Shown: positions 961 to 11,441, counted from the stretch's first letter. The stretch is DNA of 64,000 nucleotides from Leptospiraceae bacterium (GCA_017996175.1 JAGOHK010000013.1:1-64000), one strand, 5' to 3'. The notes: a model not told the origin generated them from the sequence alone. Translations and numbers: made by a program.

Positions 961-2376
961 ATGAGTTTTTTACAAAAAGTTTTTGCATTTTTCTACAAAG
1001 ATAAGATTCGCAAATTTGAAGCCTTTCCCGGACCGACTCCAAGTTTCCCGCTTGGAAATTTAGATTTACTTCTAGGACAAAATCCATGGGAGGCTACGTC
1101 TGGTTTAGCGCAGAACTATGGAAATATTTATGTTCTATGGTTTGCCTCTACTCCTCAGATAGTCGTTAATTCTCCTGATTTTTTTCGCGAAGTTTTGGAT
1201 TCCAGTTGGTCAGATTATCATAAAGATGCTCCACTTAAACAATTAAATCCAGTTATCACAAAGTATACTCCTTTTCTTGCAAATCCACCACAGTGGCAGA
1301 GTATGCGCGCAAACAATCCATTTAGCGCTGATTGGTTTTCTGATTGGCTTAAAAAACAACCAGAGGTTCTAAGTGCTGGAATGTCTTTAATAGTCTCCGC
1401 GTTAGCCGCAAAGTCTAAAGCAGAGAACTTAGATCTTACAAAAGTTTTACAAAAAGTTTCCTTTGATTCATTTTCGCTTTCTGTTGCCGGAAAATACCTT
1501 CCTGAATTTGTTTATAAACTCTTTGTTTCTCTTGGAAAAACTGGTTCTAGGAGACTTGTAAATCCCTTTATACTTTCTTTTGTTCTAAATCCGTTTTTTT
1601 ATTTAAAACGAAAAATCTGGCTTGGGTATTTTGAAAAATTAATTAACACTGCGGATAATGAAATGAATTCACAGGCTACTGATCTAATCCAATGGACATC
1701 TCGGGAAGGAGCAAAAATTTCCGACGTTTCCCTCACTGCAAATACTGCCGATATTTTCTATGGAGGAGTATATTCCGTAACCAGTAATTTTGTTACTGTA
1801 GTTTGGTTTTTAAGCCAACCGGAAAATAAAAAATACGAAGAGAAATTAAAAAAAGAAATAAAGTCTGTTTTAAAAAACAAACAAACTTTCACTTACGCCG
1901 ATTTAGAAAAAATGGAATTCTTAGATAAAGTAATTCGAGAGGCTATGCGTATTTTGCCTCCAGTCCCATTTTATAGTAGAAATAGTTCAAACACCCAAGT
2001 TGTATTTCTAAAAGATAAACAAAAAAACAAGGAATACAAAATTCCAACTAACACACCAATTGTTTTATCGAATTATTTTTTACATCGAACAGAAGAACAC
2101 TGGAAAAACGCATTGGAATTTAATCCAGAAAGATGGACGAAAGAGGTTATGAAAGATAACCCTTATGGAAGCGATTATTTTTTTCCATTTGGTCGTGGAC
2201 CTAGAAGTTGTATGGGTATGCCTTATGCACTTATGTATCTTCAAACTGCCATTGCTTCTTTTTATGCGAAGGCAAGATTCGAACCAACGAATAAAGCAAA
2301 GTATGAACAGTCTTTTTTCTTCGGTGTCATGATGCCTTCTGGATTAAAGGGCAAAGTAGTGCTCGACCAAGACTAA
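961..2376 (+). CDS. Cytochrome P450 with atypical I-helix
   Basis: A 471-residue P450-fold haem protein. The proline-rich hinge is near residue 23 (FPGPTPSFP). The K-helix ExxR motif is E327-R330, the meander motif is NPERW (388-392), and the haem-binding loop FPFGRGPRSCMG places the thiolate ligand at Cys417. The I-helix, where monooxygenases usually have (A/G)Gx(D/E)T(T/S), reads GGVYSVT from residue 268, with Tyr271 in place of the acid and Ser272 in place of the first Thr. P450s lacking this acid-alcohol pair often do not activate O2 but rearrange peroxides (CYP74, CYP152, prostacyclin synthase). The next gene, 21 bases on, is a lipoxygenase that makes lipid hydroperoxides, which fits a peroxide-handling role (inference). 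There is no membrane anchor or fused reductase. A GAGGT ribosome site supports the ATG start. Confidence 0.9.
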   Translation: MSFLQKVFAFFYKDKIRKFEAFPGPTPSFPLGNLDLLLGQNPWEATSGLAQNYGNIYVLWFASTPQIVVNSPDFFREVLDSSWSDYHKDAPLKQLNPVITKYTPFLANPPQWQSMRANNPFSADWFSDWLKKQPEVLSAGMSLIVSALAAKSKAENLDLTKVLQKVSFDSFSLSVAGKYLPEFVYKLFVSLGKTGSRRLVNPFILSFVLNPFFYLKRKIWLGYFEKLINTADNEMNSQATDLIQWTSREGAKISDVSLTANTADIFYGGVYSVTSNFVTVVWFLSQPENKKYEEKLKKEIKSVLKNKQTFTYADLEKMEFLDKVIREAMRILPPVPFYSRNSSNTQVVFLKDKQKNKEYKIPTNTPIVLSNYFLHRTEEHWKNALEFNPERWTKEVMKDNPYGSDYFFPFGRGPRSCMGMPYALMYLQTAIASFYAKARFEPTNKAKYEQSFFFGVMMPSGLKGKVVLDQD

Positions 2377-2397
2377 GTTATTTTAAAGGAATAGAAT

Positions 2398-4185
2398 ATG
2401 TGGCTAACAAAAATTTGCCTTCCTCAATACGATAAAAATTTAAAGTGTAGAAACAAAAATCTAGAAAAAAAGAAAAATGAATATAGATACAATTACAATA
2501 TCATTCCACCGCTTGGAATTGTGGATGGTCTACCTAAATCAGAAATACCTTCTCTTATTTGGGTATTTAAACTTTTACAAGTTGCCGTCGCCCTTGTAAG
2601 AAATGCGTTAGCTGCGAGAGAGAGAACAGCTTGGAATTTTAGGAAATATTTTCTACCAGAAATATTTAGAATAAAAATGTTACTCCGTCTCTTGGGACTT
2701 CTATTTTCCGGAGATCCCACTAATTTTTTTGTAGCGGGTGGAACGTATGTCGCAAAGTTTTTGAAACCCGGAGAAGGTATTGACTTAGGAGAATACAACG
2801 ACTTATTCGGAACAATTTCGATTCCGAATCAAGACTTAGATTTTCAATCCGATGAGAACTTTGCCATCATGCGAGTTGCCGGTTGGAATCCAGCAGTTAT
2901 AGAAAGGTTGGATGCACTCCCTAAAAATTTTCCTTTCAATGATAAATTATTTCGTAATCTCTCTCTATTTAAAAATGATTCCATTGCGTCTGCACTAAAA
3001 GAAAAAAGGCTTTTTATGACCGACTACAAAGCCTTAGAAATTTTGCAAAATGGAAACCAACCAAATGGGGATAAATATTGTTATGTGCCAATGGCGTTAT
3101 TTGCTATTGATAAAGGTGAAAAAAAGCTACGACCGATTGCAATTCAATGTGGACAAAATCCAAAGGAATTTCCCATCTTTACGCCTAAGTCCTCCGAGTG
3201 GGCATGGAAAATGGCTAAGTCGGTCGTGAATTCGGCTGACGGAAACCACCACGAACTAGTTACTCATTTATCTAGAACACATCTTTATTTAGAGCCTTTT
3301 GTAGTTGCAACATACAGACAATTATCCTCTCGTCACCCTCTTTTTAGACTTTTAGTTCCCCATTTTCAAGGAACGATTTTTATTAATTATCTCGCAAAAG
3401 CAAAGTTAATCGCTCCTGGCGGTGGAGTCGACTATTTACTTTCTGGAACTATCGCGTCTGACGCGGGTGTTGCCGTTCAGTCTGTTTTAGATTTAAAGTT
3501 CAACGAATCTTTTTTTCCTACTTCTTTAAAAAAAAGAAAAGTAGATGATCCAGATTTTTTAGAATACTATCCGTACCGAGATGATGGATTACTTGTTTGG
3601 ACTGCAATTGAAAACTGGGTGAAGTCTTACTTGAAAATATTCTATCAGCATAAAGAAGATATTAGGAATGACTTCGAATTACAACTCTGGGCAAAGGAAG
3701 TTTCATCGATCACAGGTGGTAGGGTAAAAGATTTTGGCGAAGATGGAAATGGTAAATTAGAAACATTTGATTATTTAGTATTAGCCGCTACTCAAATTAT
3801 TTTTACTGCAAGTGCAGGTCATTCTTCTGTTAACTTTCCACAAAGAGAATTAATGCTTTATGCTCCACAAGTTCCACTTGCACTGTATGACGAAGCGCCA
3901 AAGGCTAATCGAAATTATACCGAAAAAGATTGGATCAGTATGTTACCAACTCTCGATATCGCATCGTTACAGTTAAATCTGGGTTATACTCTAGGGGCAA
4001 TATATTTTACAAAATTAGGGGAATACCCAACATTCTGGTTTAAAAATTCAGTGAAAGAAAAAACTTTAGACGCTTACCAAGAGGAATTAAAAAAAGTAGA
4101 ACAAACTATTCATTCAAGGAATAAGACGCGTTATCCTTACCCGTTTATGCTGCCTTCTCGACTAACACAATCTATTAACGTGTAA
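2398..4185 (+). CDS. Lipoxygenase, catalytic domain only
   Basis: A 595-residue lipoxygenase that would insert O2 into polyunsaturated fatty acids to give hydroperoxides. Expected non-haem iron ligands are present: His285 and His290 in HHELVTHLSRTH, His475 and Asn479 in SAGHSSVNF, and the C-terminal carboxylate of Val595 after QSINV. EPFVVATYRQLSSRHPLF and PYRDDGLLVW also match conserved lipoxygenase blocks. The N-terminal PLAT/C2 domain of plant and animal enzymes is missing, as in other compact bacterial forms, and there is no clear signal peptide. The last residue is Val rather than the usual Ile; fungal manganese lipoxygenase also ends in Val. An AAAGGAA ribosome site precedes the ATG, and the gene is almost certainly cotranscribed with the P450. 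Substrate and regiospecificity cannot be read from the sequence. Confidence 0.9.
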   Translation: MWLTKICLPQYDKNLKCRNKNLEKKKNEYRYNYNIIPPLGIVDGLPKSEIPSLIWVFKLLQVAVALVRNALAARERTAWNFRKYFLPEIFRIKMLLRLLGLLFSGDPTNFFVAGGTYVAKFLKPGEGIDLGEYNDLFGTISIPNQDLDFQSDENFAIMRVAGWNPAVIERLDALPKNFPFNDKLFRNLSLFKNDSIASALKEKRLFMTDYKALEILQNGNQPNGDKYCYVPMALFAIDKGEKKLRPIAIQCGQNPKEFPIFTPKSSEWAWKMAKSVVNSADGNHHELVTHLSRTHLYLEPFVVATYRQLSSRHPLFRLLVPHFQGTIFINYLAKAKLIAPGGGVDYLLSGTIASDAGVAVQSVLDLKFNESFFPTSLKKRKVDDPDFLEYYPYRDDGLLVWTAIENWVKSYLKIFYQHKEDIRNDFELQLWAKEVSSITGGRVKDFGEDGNGKLETFDYLVLAATQIIFTASAGHSSVNFPQRELMLYAPQVPLALYDEAPKANRNYTEKDWISMLPTLDIASLQLNLGYTLGAIYFTKLGEYPTFWFKNSVKEKTLDAYQEELKKVEQTIHSRNKTRYPYPFMLPSRLTQSINV

Positions 4186-4490: not shown

Positions 4491-5138
4491 ATGTTGAAAC
4501 GTATATTTGTAATTCTAAGTCTGATTCTTTTAGGAAGCATTGCGGCATATATTGTTTATCTGGAAGATATGCGTTATTCATTACCGACTCCTGTGCCTAC
4601 GAATTATGAAATGATTCCCCTTGGAACATTTATTTCTCCTCCAAGCCCAATTCTGACTGTCAGAGATAAACCTTTATTCATTCATTTTTTTAACCCATAC
4701 TGTCCTTGCTCTCGTTTTAATTTGGAACATTTTAAAGAATTGATTTTCAAATTTTCAAATAAGGTTGATTTCGCTGTTGTTTTACAAATTGAAAAAGAGA
4801 ATGCAGTTACAAAGTTTAAAACAATGGAGCTAAATTTGCCTTATGTCGAAGATAATAAAGGAGAGATTGCCGATAAATACGGAGTATACTCTACCCCGCA
4901 GGCTATCATTTTAGATAAGACCGGGAAATTATTTTATCGTGGGAATTATAATAAAGCGAGGTATTGTTCACTTAAATCTTCCGAATATGCAAGGCTTGCA
5001 ATAGAGGCTTTACTTCGGGAAGAAAAAATGGGCGAACTCCCTGTTTATGCTAGAATTGCTTATGGTTGCCAATTGCCATCGGAAAATTTAAACCAACGAA
5101 GAAATGAAATTTTAGATGATTTGTTTTCTATTTTTTAA
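4491..5138 (+). CDS. Membrane-anchored thioredoxin-fold protein with CPC motif
   Basis: A 215-residue protein. Residues 5-24 form a membrane anchor or uncleaved signal. The rest is thioredoxin-like: FNPYCPCSRF gives a Cys71-Pro-Cys73 redox site, and STPQAIILD supplies the cis-proline loop. A CxC motif instead of CxxC usually means an altered redox potential. More Cys residues near the C-terminus (NKARYC, AYGC) may form a second disulfide. It probably works on thiols outside the inner membrane, but I cannot name the family. Only three bases separate it from the next gene, a chemotaxis receptor, so the two are likely one operon. It could instead be a redox sensor subunit rather than a general oxidoreductase. 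Confidence 0.7.
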   Translation: MLKRIFVILSLILLGSIAAYIVYLEDMRYSLPTPVPTNYEMIPLGTFISPPSPILTVRDKPLFIHFFNPYCPCSRFNLEHFKELIFKFSNKVDFAVVLQIEKENAVTKFKTMELNLPYVEDNKGEIADKYGVYSTPQAIILDKTGKLFYRGNYNKARYCSLKSSEYARLAIEALLREEKMGELPVYARIAYGCQLPSENLNQRRNEILDDLFSIF

Positions 5139-5141
5139 ATT

Positions 5142-6689
5142 ATGTTAAAACTTGATATTGAAAAAATTAAAAAGATAACAACCAAAGAAGAGTTAAATGA
5201 AGCTATGCTTCCGGTTTATCGGAAAGCAGAAAAAATCATGCAAGCGATGATTTTGTTTCATACAGCTTTATCCTTTGTTCTTGTTTTTTATTTTGATACA
5301 TGGCTTGTTACATTGGGAGTTGTGATTCCTGCGGTTATTGCTTATTACCTTGTAGTCAAATTATACCCGAATACAAGATTTGCAAGATCAAATGCTGGAA
5401 TTGTAATTCAAACTTTTATGATGCTCCATATCTATCAAATGCATGGACTTATGGAAATGCATTTTTTCTTTTTTACATCGACTGCTATTATGATAATCTA
5501 TATGGATTGGATAAGCATTGTTCCAATGGCAGTTTATGTTTCAGCCCAACATCTTACTTTTATCCTATTACATAACGCTGGATGGCAAATTTATTTTTTT
5601 GAAGATCCTTATATTGGTCTCACAAAGGCTATTTTCCATTATGCGGTGGCTGTTTTTCAAGTTGTAATTTCTTGTTTTTGGGCTTATACTTTTAGACAAA
5701 GAGTTTTAGAAAATTTTTATCAAAACCAAGCACTTGCTAAATACAGTGAAGAACAATTAGAAGGCAAAGATAAGGTTATGCGAAATATGATCCAAGAGTT
5801 GAGTCAAGTAACCTCTTCGGTTCGGGACTCATATAATGATATTGTAAATAGTACAAAAGAAGTTTCTCTTTCTCTTCAATACATTGCTGAAGGGGCAAGT
5901 AGACAAACAGAGTTAGCCGATAATACAGTAGTAGATTCTCAAAAATTGGGAGATCGGATTAACTCTATATTAGTCACAGCTAATCTTTTGATTGAAAAAT
6001 CAAAAGAAATGAAAAATGAAAACCTACTCGGTTTAAAACAAATTCAAAATCTCAAAAACAATTTTGCCAGAAACCAGGAAGCTACAAGACATGTAAATGA
6101 TGCAATCACTGATTTATCTGCAAGATCGAGAGATGTGGCATCCATTATTGAAAAAATAAAATCTATCGCAGACCAAACTCACCTTCTTTCGCTTAACGCA
6201 TCTATTGAAGCCGCAAGAGCAGGAGATACAGGAAAAGGTTTTGCTGTTGTTGCCTCAGAGGTTGGAAAACTCGCAGATGAGTCTTCCAGGTCTACAAAAG
6301 AAATTTCCACAATCGTAAACCAAATCAATAAGTTCATTAATTCGGCTAAAGAACAAATGATGCAAGCGGAATCTTTATTAAAATCATCGGAAGTAGACAT
6401 GAACCAAACGGTGAATACCTTTCATGAAATTGAGAAAACTGTTTCCGAAGTTGCTGACAAAAATGAACTTCTACTTTCTGAAATTGAATCCATGGATGAA
6501 TTAAAAATAAACACAATCGAAAACTCTCGTAAAATTTTAACTGTTATCCAAGACTCTGCCTCATCTACGGAAGAAATTAGTGCAACTACAAACGAACAAA
6601 CGAATTCCGTTCAAAGCATTTTATTCAAAATCAATGAGCTTGATGAAAAGGTGAAGATTATTACAAAGACAATGGAAAATAGCGATTAA
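5142..6689 (+). CDS. Methyl-accepting chemotaxis protein with His-rich membrane sensor
   Basis: A 515-residue receptor. Residues ~33-185 hold about six membrane helices with almost no periplasmic loop, so the signal is probably sensed in or near the membrane. The cytoplasmic part is a long coiled coil with the signalling hairpin [14 protein letters not shown], which contacts CheA/CheW. No HAMP domain was recognised. The membrane region has a recurring bacterial pattern MEMHFF with Glu105, His107, His137 and His166; the receptor at 27498-29069 has the same residues at matching spacing. There is no good ribosome site, and the start lies 3 bases after the upstream stop, suggesting translational coupling to the thioredoxin-fold gene. 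Confidence 0.92.
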
Positions 6690-6767: not shown

Positions 6768-7538
6768 TTAGAAATTAGGTTTTCTTTTTTCTAAAAATGC
6801 GCTAAGCCCTTCGTGGGTTTCTTTGTCGTTGAATATAAAGCCGAATGCTTTTTGTTCTAGCCGCATTCCTTCATCTTGACTAGTCTCTAGCCCTTCCCAG
6901 ATAACACGTTTTGCTTCTTTGACTGCGTGTGAGCTTCGTAGGCAAATAGAATTCGCAATTGCATTTGCAGTGGTTAATAAATCTGCTGGTTCGACTAAAC
7001 GATTTACAAGACCGATTCTATATGCATCTTCTGCTGTGATCATTTCGGCTGTAAATATAATTTCTTTTGCAAGTCCGGCACCTATGAGCCTAGGTAAACG
7101 TTGTGTTCCCCCAAATCCTGGAATCAGTCCAAGCCCAACTTCGGGTAATCCTAATTTTGCGTTCTTGGATGCCACTCGGATATCACAAGCTAATGCAAGC
7201 TCTAATCCTCCACCAAGCGCAAAACCGTTGATAGCCGCAATGATTACCAAACGGGATCTTTCTATATTCGTAAATACTACTTGACCCAGTCCTCCGAACT
7301 CGTAACCTTTTTCGTAATCAAAGTCTTTCATCGCGGCTATATCTGCGCCGGCTACGAATGCTTTTCCGCTTCCGGTAAGAATTACAACTCTATTGGTACT
7401 ATCTTGTTCTAAATGAGCTATACATGATTCTAATTCAATCAGTAAATCTTTATTTAAAGCATTTAATGCTTCGGGGCGTGAAATTTCTACTGTTACAATT
7501 TTTTCTTGTTTTGTTACTTTTATATGTTTAAATTCCAT
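6768..7538 (-). CDS. Enoyl-CoA hydratase / crotonase family protein
   Basis: A 256-residue crotonase-fold enzyme, full length for the family. The oxyanion-hole segments are AFVAGADIAAM (~60-70) and NGFALGGGLELALACD (~104-119). Both hydratase glutamates are present: Glu113 in GGLEL and Glu133 in LPEVGLG, followed by IPGFGGTQRL. This fits hydration of 2-trans-enoyl-CoA in fatty-acid beta-oxidation or a related CoA pathway. An AGAGGAAAAT ribosome site supports the ATG. It lies downstream of the PP2C phosphatase gene on the same strand, with no other beta-oxidation gene beside it, so the exact substrate is open. Confidence 0.9.
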   Translation of the reverse strand: MEFKHIKVTKQEKIVTVEISRPEALNALNKDLLIELESCIAHLEQDSTNRVVILTGSGKAFVAGADIAAMKDFDYEKGYEFGGLGQVVFTNIERSRLVIIAAINGFALGGGLELALACDIRVASKNAKLGLPEVGLGLIPGFGGTQRLPRLIGAGLAKEIIFTAEMITAEDAYRIGLVNRLVEPADLLTTANAIANSICLRSSHAVKEAKRVIWEGLETSQDEGMRLEQKAFGFIFNDKETHEGLSAFLEKRKPNF

Positions 7539-9377: not shown

Positions 9378-10295
9378 ATGAATTCTGCTATAGCGAAAGT
9401 AGAGCAAAACAACGGAACGTATTTTTTAAAACCTGTAGGTAACCTTACTCTCGATGCCCATATTAGACAATTCAACCTCTGGGCAAAGGAAAATAATGTG
9501 GATAATTTGGGTAATCCTCTGGTGGTTTCTACTTCTACGATAAAGGATTTTTTTGACCATCTTCTCAGAGATAAGAATAAATACGGCAGAAAAAATAGAG
9601 CATCGACTCTTCATGGCTATAAGTCCGCGATTAAAAAATCAGTTTCTAAGACTTTTAAGATGAGTATGGAAGAAAAAGTAGCGTTTGAATTATTCTTTCG
9701 AAAAATTAAATTACCGAAAGCCGCTCATGCTATTAAGGCTATTTCTATAGAAGACTTGCAGTCGCTTATAGATGAATCTGATATTCGAACAAACTTAATA
9801 ATTCGATTTCTAGTAATGTCTGGTCTTAGAATTTCTGAAATGATAAATGTGCGGGTATCTGATGTTATGCTATCAGATGATAAATCTGATTATAATATTT
9901 ATGTAATTGGAAAAGGAAATAAAGAAGGATTAATAACAGGCATTCCAAAACAATTAATCAAAGAAATTCAAGAAGTTTTTAAAGGTAAAGAATACTTATT
10001 CGAAAGAAATAAAAAACCAAAACGCCTAAACGAAAATAAAGAGGAGATAATGAAGTATACCCGTAGACAAATGTACGTTTTAATAGAAAAAGCAGGACTT
10101 TCTATTTTAGGTAAAAGAATTAATCCTCACATGACTCGCCATACTTGCGGACGAATCTTAATGGATCGTTTAAGAGATGTAAATAAAGTGCAAGATAGAC
10201 TTAGGCATTCTTCCGTAAAAACAACGATTGAAAATTATCTAACCACAAAGATTACTAATAAAGATGTAAAAGAAGCATTTGAAGGAATCCTATAG
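9378..10295 (+). CDS. Tyrosine recombinase (XerC/XerD-like)
   Basis: A 305-residue integrase of Xer-like length. The N-terminal SAM-like domain (~20-115) includes TLHGYKSAIKKSVSK. The catalytic residues are complete: Arg151 in SGLRISE, Lys179 in GKGNKEG, His251 and Arg254 in HMTRHTCG, His277 in RLRHSS and Tyr287 in ENYL. It would cut and rejoin DNA through a 3'-phosphotyrosine link. It could be the chromosome-dimer resolvase acting at dif, or a stand-alone integrase. No attachment site, excisionase or phage gene lies nearby, which favours a housekeeping or orphan role. Its last six bases overlap the convergent hemW gene. Confidence 0.88.
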   Translation: MNSAIAKVEQNNGTYFLKPVGNLTLDAHIRQFNLWAKENNVDNLGNPLVVSTSTIKDFFDHLLRDKNKYGRKNRASTLHGYKSAIKKSVSKTFKMSMEEKVAFELFFRKIKLPKAAHAIKAISIEDLQSLIDESDIRTNLIIRFLVMSGLRISEMINVRVSDVMLSDDKSDYNIYVIGKGNKEGLITGIPKQLIKEIQEVFKGKEYLFERNKKPKRLNENKEEIMKYTRRQMYVLIEKAGLSILGKRINPHMTRHTCGRILMDRLRDVNKVQDRLRHSSVKTTIENYLTTKITNKDVKEAFEGIL

Positions 10296-11441
10296 TTCGC
10301 TAATTTCAAGTATAAATTCATCTAAGCGGGTAACAGCATGTATCTTCCACTGAAAAATTCCATTTTCATAAACGCAAAATCCAGATTTGACCCAAGTCTG
10401 GATTAATTTTTCAAGGGCAGATTTTTTTTCTGTGATTAAAATCGAAAAAGAGTTTAAGTCGAAAGGAATAAACAAACGAAATAAACACAAAGCAAGTTCC
10501 TCTAAAAGTTTTGGTTCTTCGTAATCCTTTCCAAATTCACCGGAATTGTATTTTTCAATCGAACGATTATTGAAATAACGCCCATTATCCGTAAATCCAT
10601 GCGCGCCGGGACCTAGGGAAAGATATTTTTCCATTGTCCAATACTTTAGATTATGGCGTGATTCTTCTCCTTCTCTGCAATAATTGGAGACTTCATATTG
10701 TCTGTATCCTTTTTCACCGAGAAAGGACGGTAAAATTTCTAAAATTTCTAATTGTAAATCTTCATTCGGCGGTTTTGCTAATTTCTTTTTTACCTGCTTT
10801 GCATACTCAGTGCCTTTTTCGACCGTGAGACTGTATAGGCTAATATGCGTTACCCTTGCGTCAAGAGATTTTTTTAAATCTAATAGGAACATTTCTAAAG
10901 TTTGTCCGGGAATTCCATACATCAAGTCTATACCGAAACGTTTTATTTTAGAAGAGGAAAGATGATTTAAAACTTGTGAATATTTTTTTTCATCGTTGTA
11001 CCTATCGAGTGTAGTCAGTAGACTTTTATGAAAACTTTGAATTCCTGCATTGACGCGGTTAACACCAATCGAATGCATGATGGAAAGTTTTTCGGGAGAA
11101 ATATCTTCCGGGTTCATCTCCATTGTAAACTCGGTATCTTCTGAAAAAATCAATTTAGATTTAATGTATTCTAAAATTTCAGCAAGCAAATCTAGATTAG
11201 CCAGAGAAGGAGTCCCACCTCCAATAAAAATCGTATCAAAAGTATATTTTTGAATAGTCGGATCTAACTCGAGGCGTTTGTTAAATTCCTTTTTGTAGTT
11301 ATCAAATAGACTCTTTTGATCTGGTGTATTATTTTTTCCAATTCCTACTGAATAAAAATCACAATAGGAACATTTATGGATACAGAAAGGAAAATGAAGG
11401 TATAATCCCGCGTATCCACTTCTGTAAATAATCGGTTGCAA
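10290..11441 (-). CDS. hemW: HemW, radical SAM haem chaperone
   Basis: A 383-residue radical SAM protein. CIHKCSYCDF near the N-terminus gives the CxxxCxxC iron-sulfur cluster site. Phe at the second position after the last cluster Cys, where HemN has another Cys, marks it as HemW rather than the oxygen-independent coproporphyrinogen oxidase. IGGGTPSLA, EMNPEDIS and GIPGQT are typical HemW/HemN barrel motifs, and the C-terminal ~100 residues match the HemW helical domain. The family binds haem and inserts it into target proteins. It overlaps the recombinase gene by six bases and starts 8 bases after the GH3 gene ends, so it may be cotranscribed with it. Confidence 0.88.
   Translation of the reverse strand: MQPIIYRSGYAGLYLHFPFCIHKCSYCDFYSVGIGKNNTPDQKSLFDNYKKEFNKRLELDPTIQKYTFDTIFIGGGTPSLANLDLLAEILEYIKSKLIFSEDTEFTMEMNPEDISPEKLSIMHSIGVNRVNAGIQSFHKSLLTTLDRYNDEKKYSQVLNHLSSSKIKRFGIDLMYGIPGQTLEMFLLDLKKSLDARVTHISLYSLTVEKGTEYAKQVKKKLAKPPNEDLQLEILEILPSFLGEKGYRQYEVSNYCREGEESRHNLKYWTMEKYLSLGPGAHGFTDNGRYFNNRSIEKYNSGEFGKDYEEPKLLEELALCLFRLFIPFDLNSFSILITEKKSALEKLIQTWVKSGFCVYENGIFQWKIHAVTRLDEFILEISEL

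Follow-up and report, generated by a model that had tools for sequence, protein, structure and literature searches.

Can a spirochaete make oxylipins from polyunsaturated fatty acids with the products of two adjacent genes? The question is raised by a window of 64 000 nt (the whole stretch of Leptospiraceae DNA that was analysed, the start of a 72-kb contig in a genome of 5.4 Mb), in which a gene for a 471 amino acid cytochrome P450 (positions 961–2376) and one for a 595 amino acid lipoxygenase (LOX; 2398–4185) follow each other on the plus strand. Both reading frames are intact and exactly 21 bp lie between them (GTTATTTTAAAGGAATAGAAT; 2377–2397); within this gap the motif AAAGGA (2385–2390), 7 nt before the LOX ATG, is likely the ribosome-binding site of the LOX gene. 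A scan for promoters and terminators gave fewer matches in the real sequence than in shuffled sequences.

A gene for a thioredoxin-like protein is found downstream of the LOX gene (4491–5138; Pfam annotation of the window); it is also present downstream of the LOX gene in two genomes of the same genus (G217 and G100) and absent at the pairs of a third (G029). A chemoreceptor (MCP) gene comes after it in the window (the two genes spanning 4491–6689), in G217 and in G100. No ferredoxin or reductase gene was noticed beside the window pair. The statement of the initial annotation that there are no other lipid genes was inexact: an enoyl-CoA hydratase/isomerase gene is located on the other strand (6768–7538), 2.6 kb downstream of the pair; nothing ties this gene to the pair.

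Features of the P450

The P450 is complete, as had been proposed: it matches Pfam PF00067 (E = 1.1e-53) and possesses both the ExxR motif (E327-x-x-R330; 1939–1950) and the haem cysteine, Cys417 (codon 2209–2211), in a canonical FxxGxRxCxG loop, FGRGPRSCMG (2188–2217). Its AF2 model (pLDDT 80.7) has the P450 fold. The top Foldseek matches of this model are CYP3A enzymes, the top 50 are mostly CYP3A structures, a fold search that does not distinguish between possible functions, and the closest solved structures by sequence and fold alike are CYP3A. Together with homologues found beside other LOX genes it belongs to a family, here called type A, whose HMM scores members above 280 bits and other P450s below 130 bits.

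The canonical acid-alcohol pair of the O2-activating I-helix, (A/G)Gx(D/E)T, is absent from the window P450, which has GGVYSV instead (G268-G269-V270-Y271-S272-V273; 1762–1779). In an alignment without gaps this motif is matched with AGHETT in both remaining P450s of the host (the genome has only three Pfam P450s), so that Tyr stands at the acid position and Ser at the Thr position. In the 45 type-A pairs the P450 has Phe (35), Tyr (5), Arg (2), Thr (2) or Val (1) at the acid position, never Asp or Glu, and Ser (43) or Asn (2) at the Thr position; the haem Cys and the ExxR motif are present in 45/45. The two members with Asn are the cyanobacterial P450s of L144 and L145 (TAGTRNV), which also have Arg at the acid position. 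Of eight unpaired P450s compared, all encoded in LOX-bearing genomes and the remaining two of the host among them, seven show AGHETT, AGHETS or AGHDTT; a motif search of the eighth found nothing. CYP152 peroxygenases have Arg-Pro in the I helix; Tyr271-Ser272 stands at those positions in the window P450. Loss of the acid is as expected for a P450 that would work on a hydroperoxide, and peroxide-isomerising P450s (plant allene oxide synthase, AOS; prostacyclin synthase, PGIS; thromboxane synthase, TXS) also have altered I-helix motifs (PMC13049297).

The P450 is not a CYP74 enzyme, and in this respect the plant parallel drawn in the initial annotation fails. The definition of CYP74 includes a nine-residue insertion in the haem-binding loop (PMC8124189, PMC6627107); FGRGPRSCMG lacks it and aligns gap-free to the canonical P450s of the host. 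The I-helix groove Asn of CYP74 (AtAOS Asn321, three residues before GG) is likewise missing: in this register, judged by the AtAOS motif given in PMC13049297, the window P450 has Ile265 (IFYGG). Membership was rejected on both grounds.

Features of the lipoxygenase

The LOX, also complete as first described, matches PF00305 (E = 3.8e-67) over residues 145–577. It is of the bacterial type, no PLAT domain being shown by Pfam. Its best solved relatives are the LOX 8x8f (E 2e-111) and the Pseudomonas LOX 4g32 (PA-LOX; E 5e-106), and its nearest relatives outside the host are encoded by Leptospiraceae MAGs (94% and 83% identity), which marks the host as a member of the Leptospiraceae that has not been cultivated. 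The full set of metal ligands is present: His285 and His290 (3250–3267), His475 and Asn479 (3820–3834) and the C-terminal Val595, at the carboxylate ligand position (4180–4182). These residues are conserved in nearly all of the 45 paired LOXs (H285 in 43/45, H290 in 44/45, H475 and N479 in 45/45; C-terminal Val in 34 and Ile in 11), the exceptions being one truncated and one very divergent LOX. Ala333 (3394–3396) aligns with the Coffa–Brash Ala of PA-LOX, and this position is Ala in 43/45 paired LOXs. Ala at the Coffa–Brash site predicts S-stereochemistry of the hydroperoxide, and the window LOX is thus predicted from Ala333 to make an S-hydroperoxide. It is a putative dioxygenase of polyunsaturated fatty acids by analogy to relatives in which the activity was measured, such as MF-LOX1 (PMC6612559). 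Two unusual LOX genes were encountered beside type-A P450s: the LOX of L143 (6966–9014), which has a cyanobacterial P450 as its neighbour, diverges extremely and shows no first His ligand in the alignment, and in G483 a truncated LOX remnant (L126; 9293–10093) adjoins a second P450 copy, possibly a decaying pair.

Conservation of the pair in Spirochaetota

LOX genes were found in 5/393 Spirochaetota genomes sampled, four of them from this genus and one (G190) from another family. In all four genomes of the genus the P450 gene directly precedes the LOX gene, ending 6 to 28 bp from it, and in G029 this arrangement occurs twice in tandem. When 30 genomes of the order were searched with a P450 profile, type A was found only in these four; neither the LOX of G190 nor a second, divergent LOX of G217 has a type-A P450. 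Since the pair is carried by four separate assemblies, contamination is unlikely. Within the genus the branching of the P450s agrees with that of the LOXs, including the branching order of the two G029 pairs. P450 and LOX distances correlate as well (Mantel r = 0.93 for 44 pairs and 0.59 for 16 lineages, P = 2e-4), a result that mostly reflects shared descent and whose value lies in the agreement of the two histories within the genus. In this genus the two genes have been inherited together. The P450 gene of G100 (L013; 10614–12911) follows SDR, thiolase and OB_ChsH2 genes at a distance of about 3 bp, as if the pair had been joined to a beta-oxidation-like operon.

Type-A pairs and other P450 families beside LOX genes

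Outside Spirochaetota up to 386 genomes were searched per phylum, a partial sampling. Type-A P450s are present in 48/195 Myxococcota genomes (profile search). LOX is directly adjacent to 32 of 36 myxobacterial copies and about 5 kb away from 2, and none was found within about 9 kb of the last 2, on flanks that were 1.5 kb for most copies and in genomes that include possibly incomplete MAGs. Type A was also found in 4/386 cyanobacterial genomes (next to LOX in all 4), in one of 297 Acidobacteriota genomes (L036, where an MCP gene, 9795–11441, lies between LOX and P450) and, beside LOX, in one unclassified SCN18 bacterium (L043) among 294 genomes of its phylum. The genomic observation by which the initial annotation would have been refuted, homologues that are never adjacent, was looked for in Leptospiraceae and in other phyla and was not borne out. 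The proposal of a bacterial pair in a spirochaete is therefore sustained as regards a conserved unit, adjacent in all genomes of the genus and also across phyla, but not as a peculiarity of spirochaetes, the pair being commonest in myxobacteria among the sampled genomes. We found no report of these LOX–P450 pairs in the open-access literature (PMC), a search that would miss reports in subscription journals.

The gene order is P450–LOX in Leptospiraceae and L143 and LOX–P450 elsewhere, so the link has survived rearrangement. Myxobacterial LOXs belong to a different LOX branch; they and the L143 LOX are far more divergent than their partner P450s, and the two trees disagree in places. The varied gene order and the different myxobacterial branch together indicate that the P450 stays tied to LOX through rearrangement and change of partner. 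Chance adjacency was ruled out by the comparative data, given that LOX is rare in Spirochaetota, that the host has few P450s and that the neighbourhood is kept across genus and phyla.

A scan of GTDB contigs with the LOX alignment gave 64 loci, 27 of which have a P450 or P450-like gene of one of three types (A, C and D) beside or near LOX, and 37 of which have none nearby. Type A accounts for L019, L020, L021 (two pairs), L036, L043 and L048 (Acaryochloris). Type C is found at 16 cyanobacterial loci, mostly of Nostocales (L023–L026, L029, L030, L032–L035, L039–L042, L080 and L082); these P450s are divergent (Pfam 1e-17 to 1e-19), follow the LOX gene, are about 448 amino acids long and have an I-helix HIAGTAGTSALLG with a conserved His and a haem loop GHERxCPG. 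Type D, at five cyanobacterial loci beside LOX (L045, 9752–11098; L046; L059; L060; L067), is very divergent, with the motifs ECAR and AGRICPG and an I-helix IAALQGP. It has an ExxR and a C-terminal Cys motif, matches Pfam below threshold and is matched to type C by HHalign (95.6%), and on these grounds is best called P450-like; the AF2 model of one member (type-D neighbour A5) has a pLDDT of 36. The acid-Thr pair is missing in both types.

Giant HstK-like kinases (Pkinase, AAA, GAF and HATPase domains; ~1800 amino acids) were seen beside LOX or LOX–P450 genes in several distant lineages (L011, 15000–20000; L014, 320–5746; L015, 11110–16464; L048, 1652–7165; L075, 2468–7195; L122, 10638–16034; L123, 10926–16358). 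A third module member of this kind was considered but is recorded as an observation only: there are 8–22 matches per genome in this group and enrichment is unproven.

A putative two-step pathway and its alternatives

We favour, with a probability of roughly 0.7, the reading that the two genes are expressed together and encode a two-step oxylipin pathway in which the P450 would rearrange the LOX hydroperoxide without O2 or a reductase. The LOX would turn a free polyunsaturated fatty acid into an S-hydroperoxide; the host genome has four FA_desaturase matches, so an endogenous fatty acid is possible, uptake being another route. The adjacent P450 would then take the hydroperoxide as both oxidant and substrate, its haem splitting the O–O bond without O2, NADPH or reductase, and the product would be rearranged. 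We infer that the genes are co-transcribed, that the substrate is handed over and that there is no redox partner, and the product is inferred as well; that the LOX product serves as the P450 substrate would be the most economical reading, and independence from O2 and reductase is suggested by the missing I-helix acid. Because the haem-Cys loop is canonical, with no CYP74 insertion, oxygen rebound would be expected to give an epoxy-alcohol or a diol more than an allene oxide or an aldehyde, the product class being a guess. Weakening of the thiolate has been ascribed to the CYP74 insertion (PMC6627107).

Several observations speak against this pathway, and most of them would suit a conventional O2- and NADPH-dependent monooxygenase, coupled to the LOX and reductase-dependent, that acts on a fatty acid or on the LOX product (the hydroperoxide or the reduced alcohol). 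By both sequence and fold the P450 stands closest to ordinary CYP3A monooxygenases, and its haem loop is canonical; the Thr position is Ser and not apolar, which makes some O2 activation conceivable; and the host encodes other P450s, so that redox partners are presumably present elsewhere in its genome. Nevertheless, such an enzyme seems unlikely to us in view of an acid that is missing from every pair and kept in nearly all unpaired P450s compared, of the recurrence of this loss in two further LOX-associated families and of the lack of a noticed redox-partner gene beside the window pair. The many bacterial LOX loci without a nearby P450 also count against the pathway, since they indicate that LOX can work alone, and so do the two myxobacterial type-A P450s for which no LOX was found within about 9 kb.

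The genomic evidence would be identical if the P450 were a detoxifier, a peroxygenase or hydroperoxide-reducing partner that shields the cell from the products of the LOX or from oxidised membranes and yields no signalling compound. The thioredoxin-like gene downstream of LOX in the window, G217 and G100 would agree with such a role; the G029 pairs do without it, and there would be little reason to destroy a hydroperoxide made by a dedicated LOX, which makes this explanation quite improbable. Adjacency without functional coupling, the two genes hitch-hiking in joint horizontal transfer, could account for the patchy distribution and for the places where the P450 and LOX trees disagree (myxobacteria, L143), but it is hardly credible when both gene orders, different LOX branches and three P450 or P450-like families are involved and short spacing is kept over deep divergence.

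With the two-step pathway as the preferred reading, we also lean towards a wider proposal, that LOX–P450 cascades leading to oxylipins arose on several occasions in bacteria, outside the CYP74 clan. Dedicated, self-sufficient isomerases of fatty-acid hydroperoxides, each encoded beside its LOX, would then make up type A (in spirochaetes, myxobacteria, cyanobacteria and Acidobacteriota), type C (chiefly in Nostocales) and perhaps the P450-like type D. The data point to a little-noticed bacterial counterpart of plant and animal lipid-signal pathways. Bacterial LOXs have mostly been studied alone, and little is known of the products that they form in nature; if the proposal is true, a conserved P450 partner supplies the missing second step after bacterial LOX, two small genes provide a non-CYP74 route to oxylipins, and P450s have in an independent case lost O2 activation to become hydroperoxide isomerases.

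Relation to known systems

In plants, LOX hydroperoxides are rearranged by CYP74 enzymes (AOS, HPL, DES, EAS) that have no acid-Thr pair and depend on neither O2 nor a redox partner (PMC10813956). Shared chemistry would be the likeness here, whereas the P450 lacks the Cys-loop insertion and the Asn, and the gene pair is a bacterial one. Fungal DOX–CYP fusions (LDS, EAS, AOS; Ppo) also place a dioxygenase and a self-sufficient P450 in series (PMC13049297); the Ppo parallel of the initial annotation does not extend to the architecture, however, and a Ppo-type fusion was rejected, since the two proteins are encoded by separate ORFs and the dioxygenase is a LOX without haem, in contrast to the COX-like haem DOX of the fusions. 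Catalase-related AOS/HPL–LOX fusions (in corals; catalase–LOX in Acaryochloris) likewise combine LOX with a haem partner that converts hydroperoxides (PMC5617202, PMC11719350), but that partner is a catalase relative and not a P450. Prostacyclin and thromboxane synthases (CYP8A1, CYP5A1) are peroxide-isomerising P450s whose I-helix is altered (see the SRS4 motifs in PMC13049297), and PGIS Asn287 is apparently the same Thr-position Asn as in the two cyanobacterial type-A members; unlike the proposed enzyme they act on a COX endoperoxide, and the solved structures nearest to the window P450 are CYP3A.

Among myxobacteria, MF-LOX1 of M. fulvus is an active, intracellular, enantioselective n-9 LOX (12S-LOX) that makes n-9 hydroperoxides from C20 and C22 polyunsaturated fatty acids; the paper does not mention a P450 partner (PMC6612559), and no report of one was found in the open-access literature. 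M. xanthus MXAN_0683 and MXAN_2304 were tried as thromboxane synthases and were inactive (PMC5760719); by locus number they are not neighbours of the M. xanthus LOX genes, and the published Myxococcus assays concern LOXs. The LOX of the myxobacterial locus L130, beside a type-A P450, has the same encoded termini (MTVEYK...CGITV) as the MF-LOX1 cloning primers, and by this match MF-LOX1 corresponds to the L130 LOX. The proposed pathway, if true, explains what the myxobacterial 12S-LOX may feed into. At L128–L130 a second, divergent LOX gene lies upstream on the other strand, a two-LOX layout which the MXAN_1744/1745 LOX pair of M. xanthus would fit.
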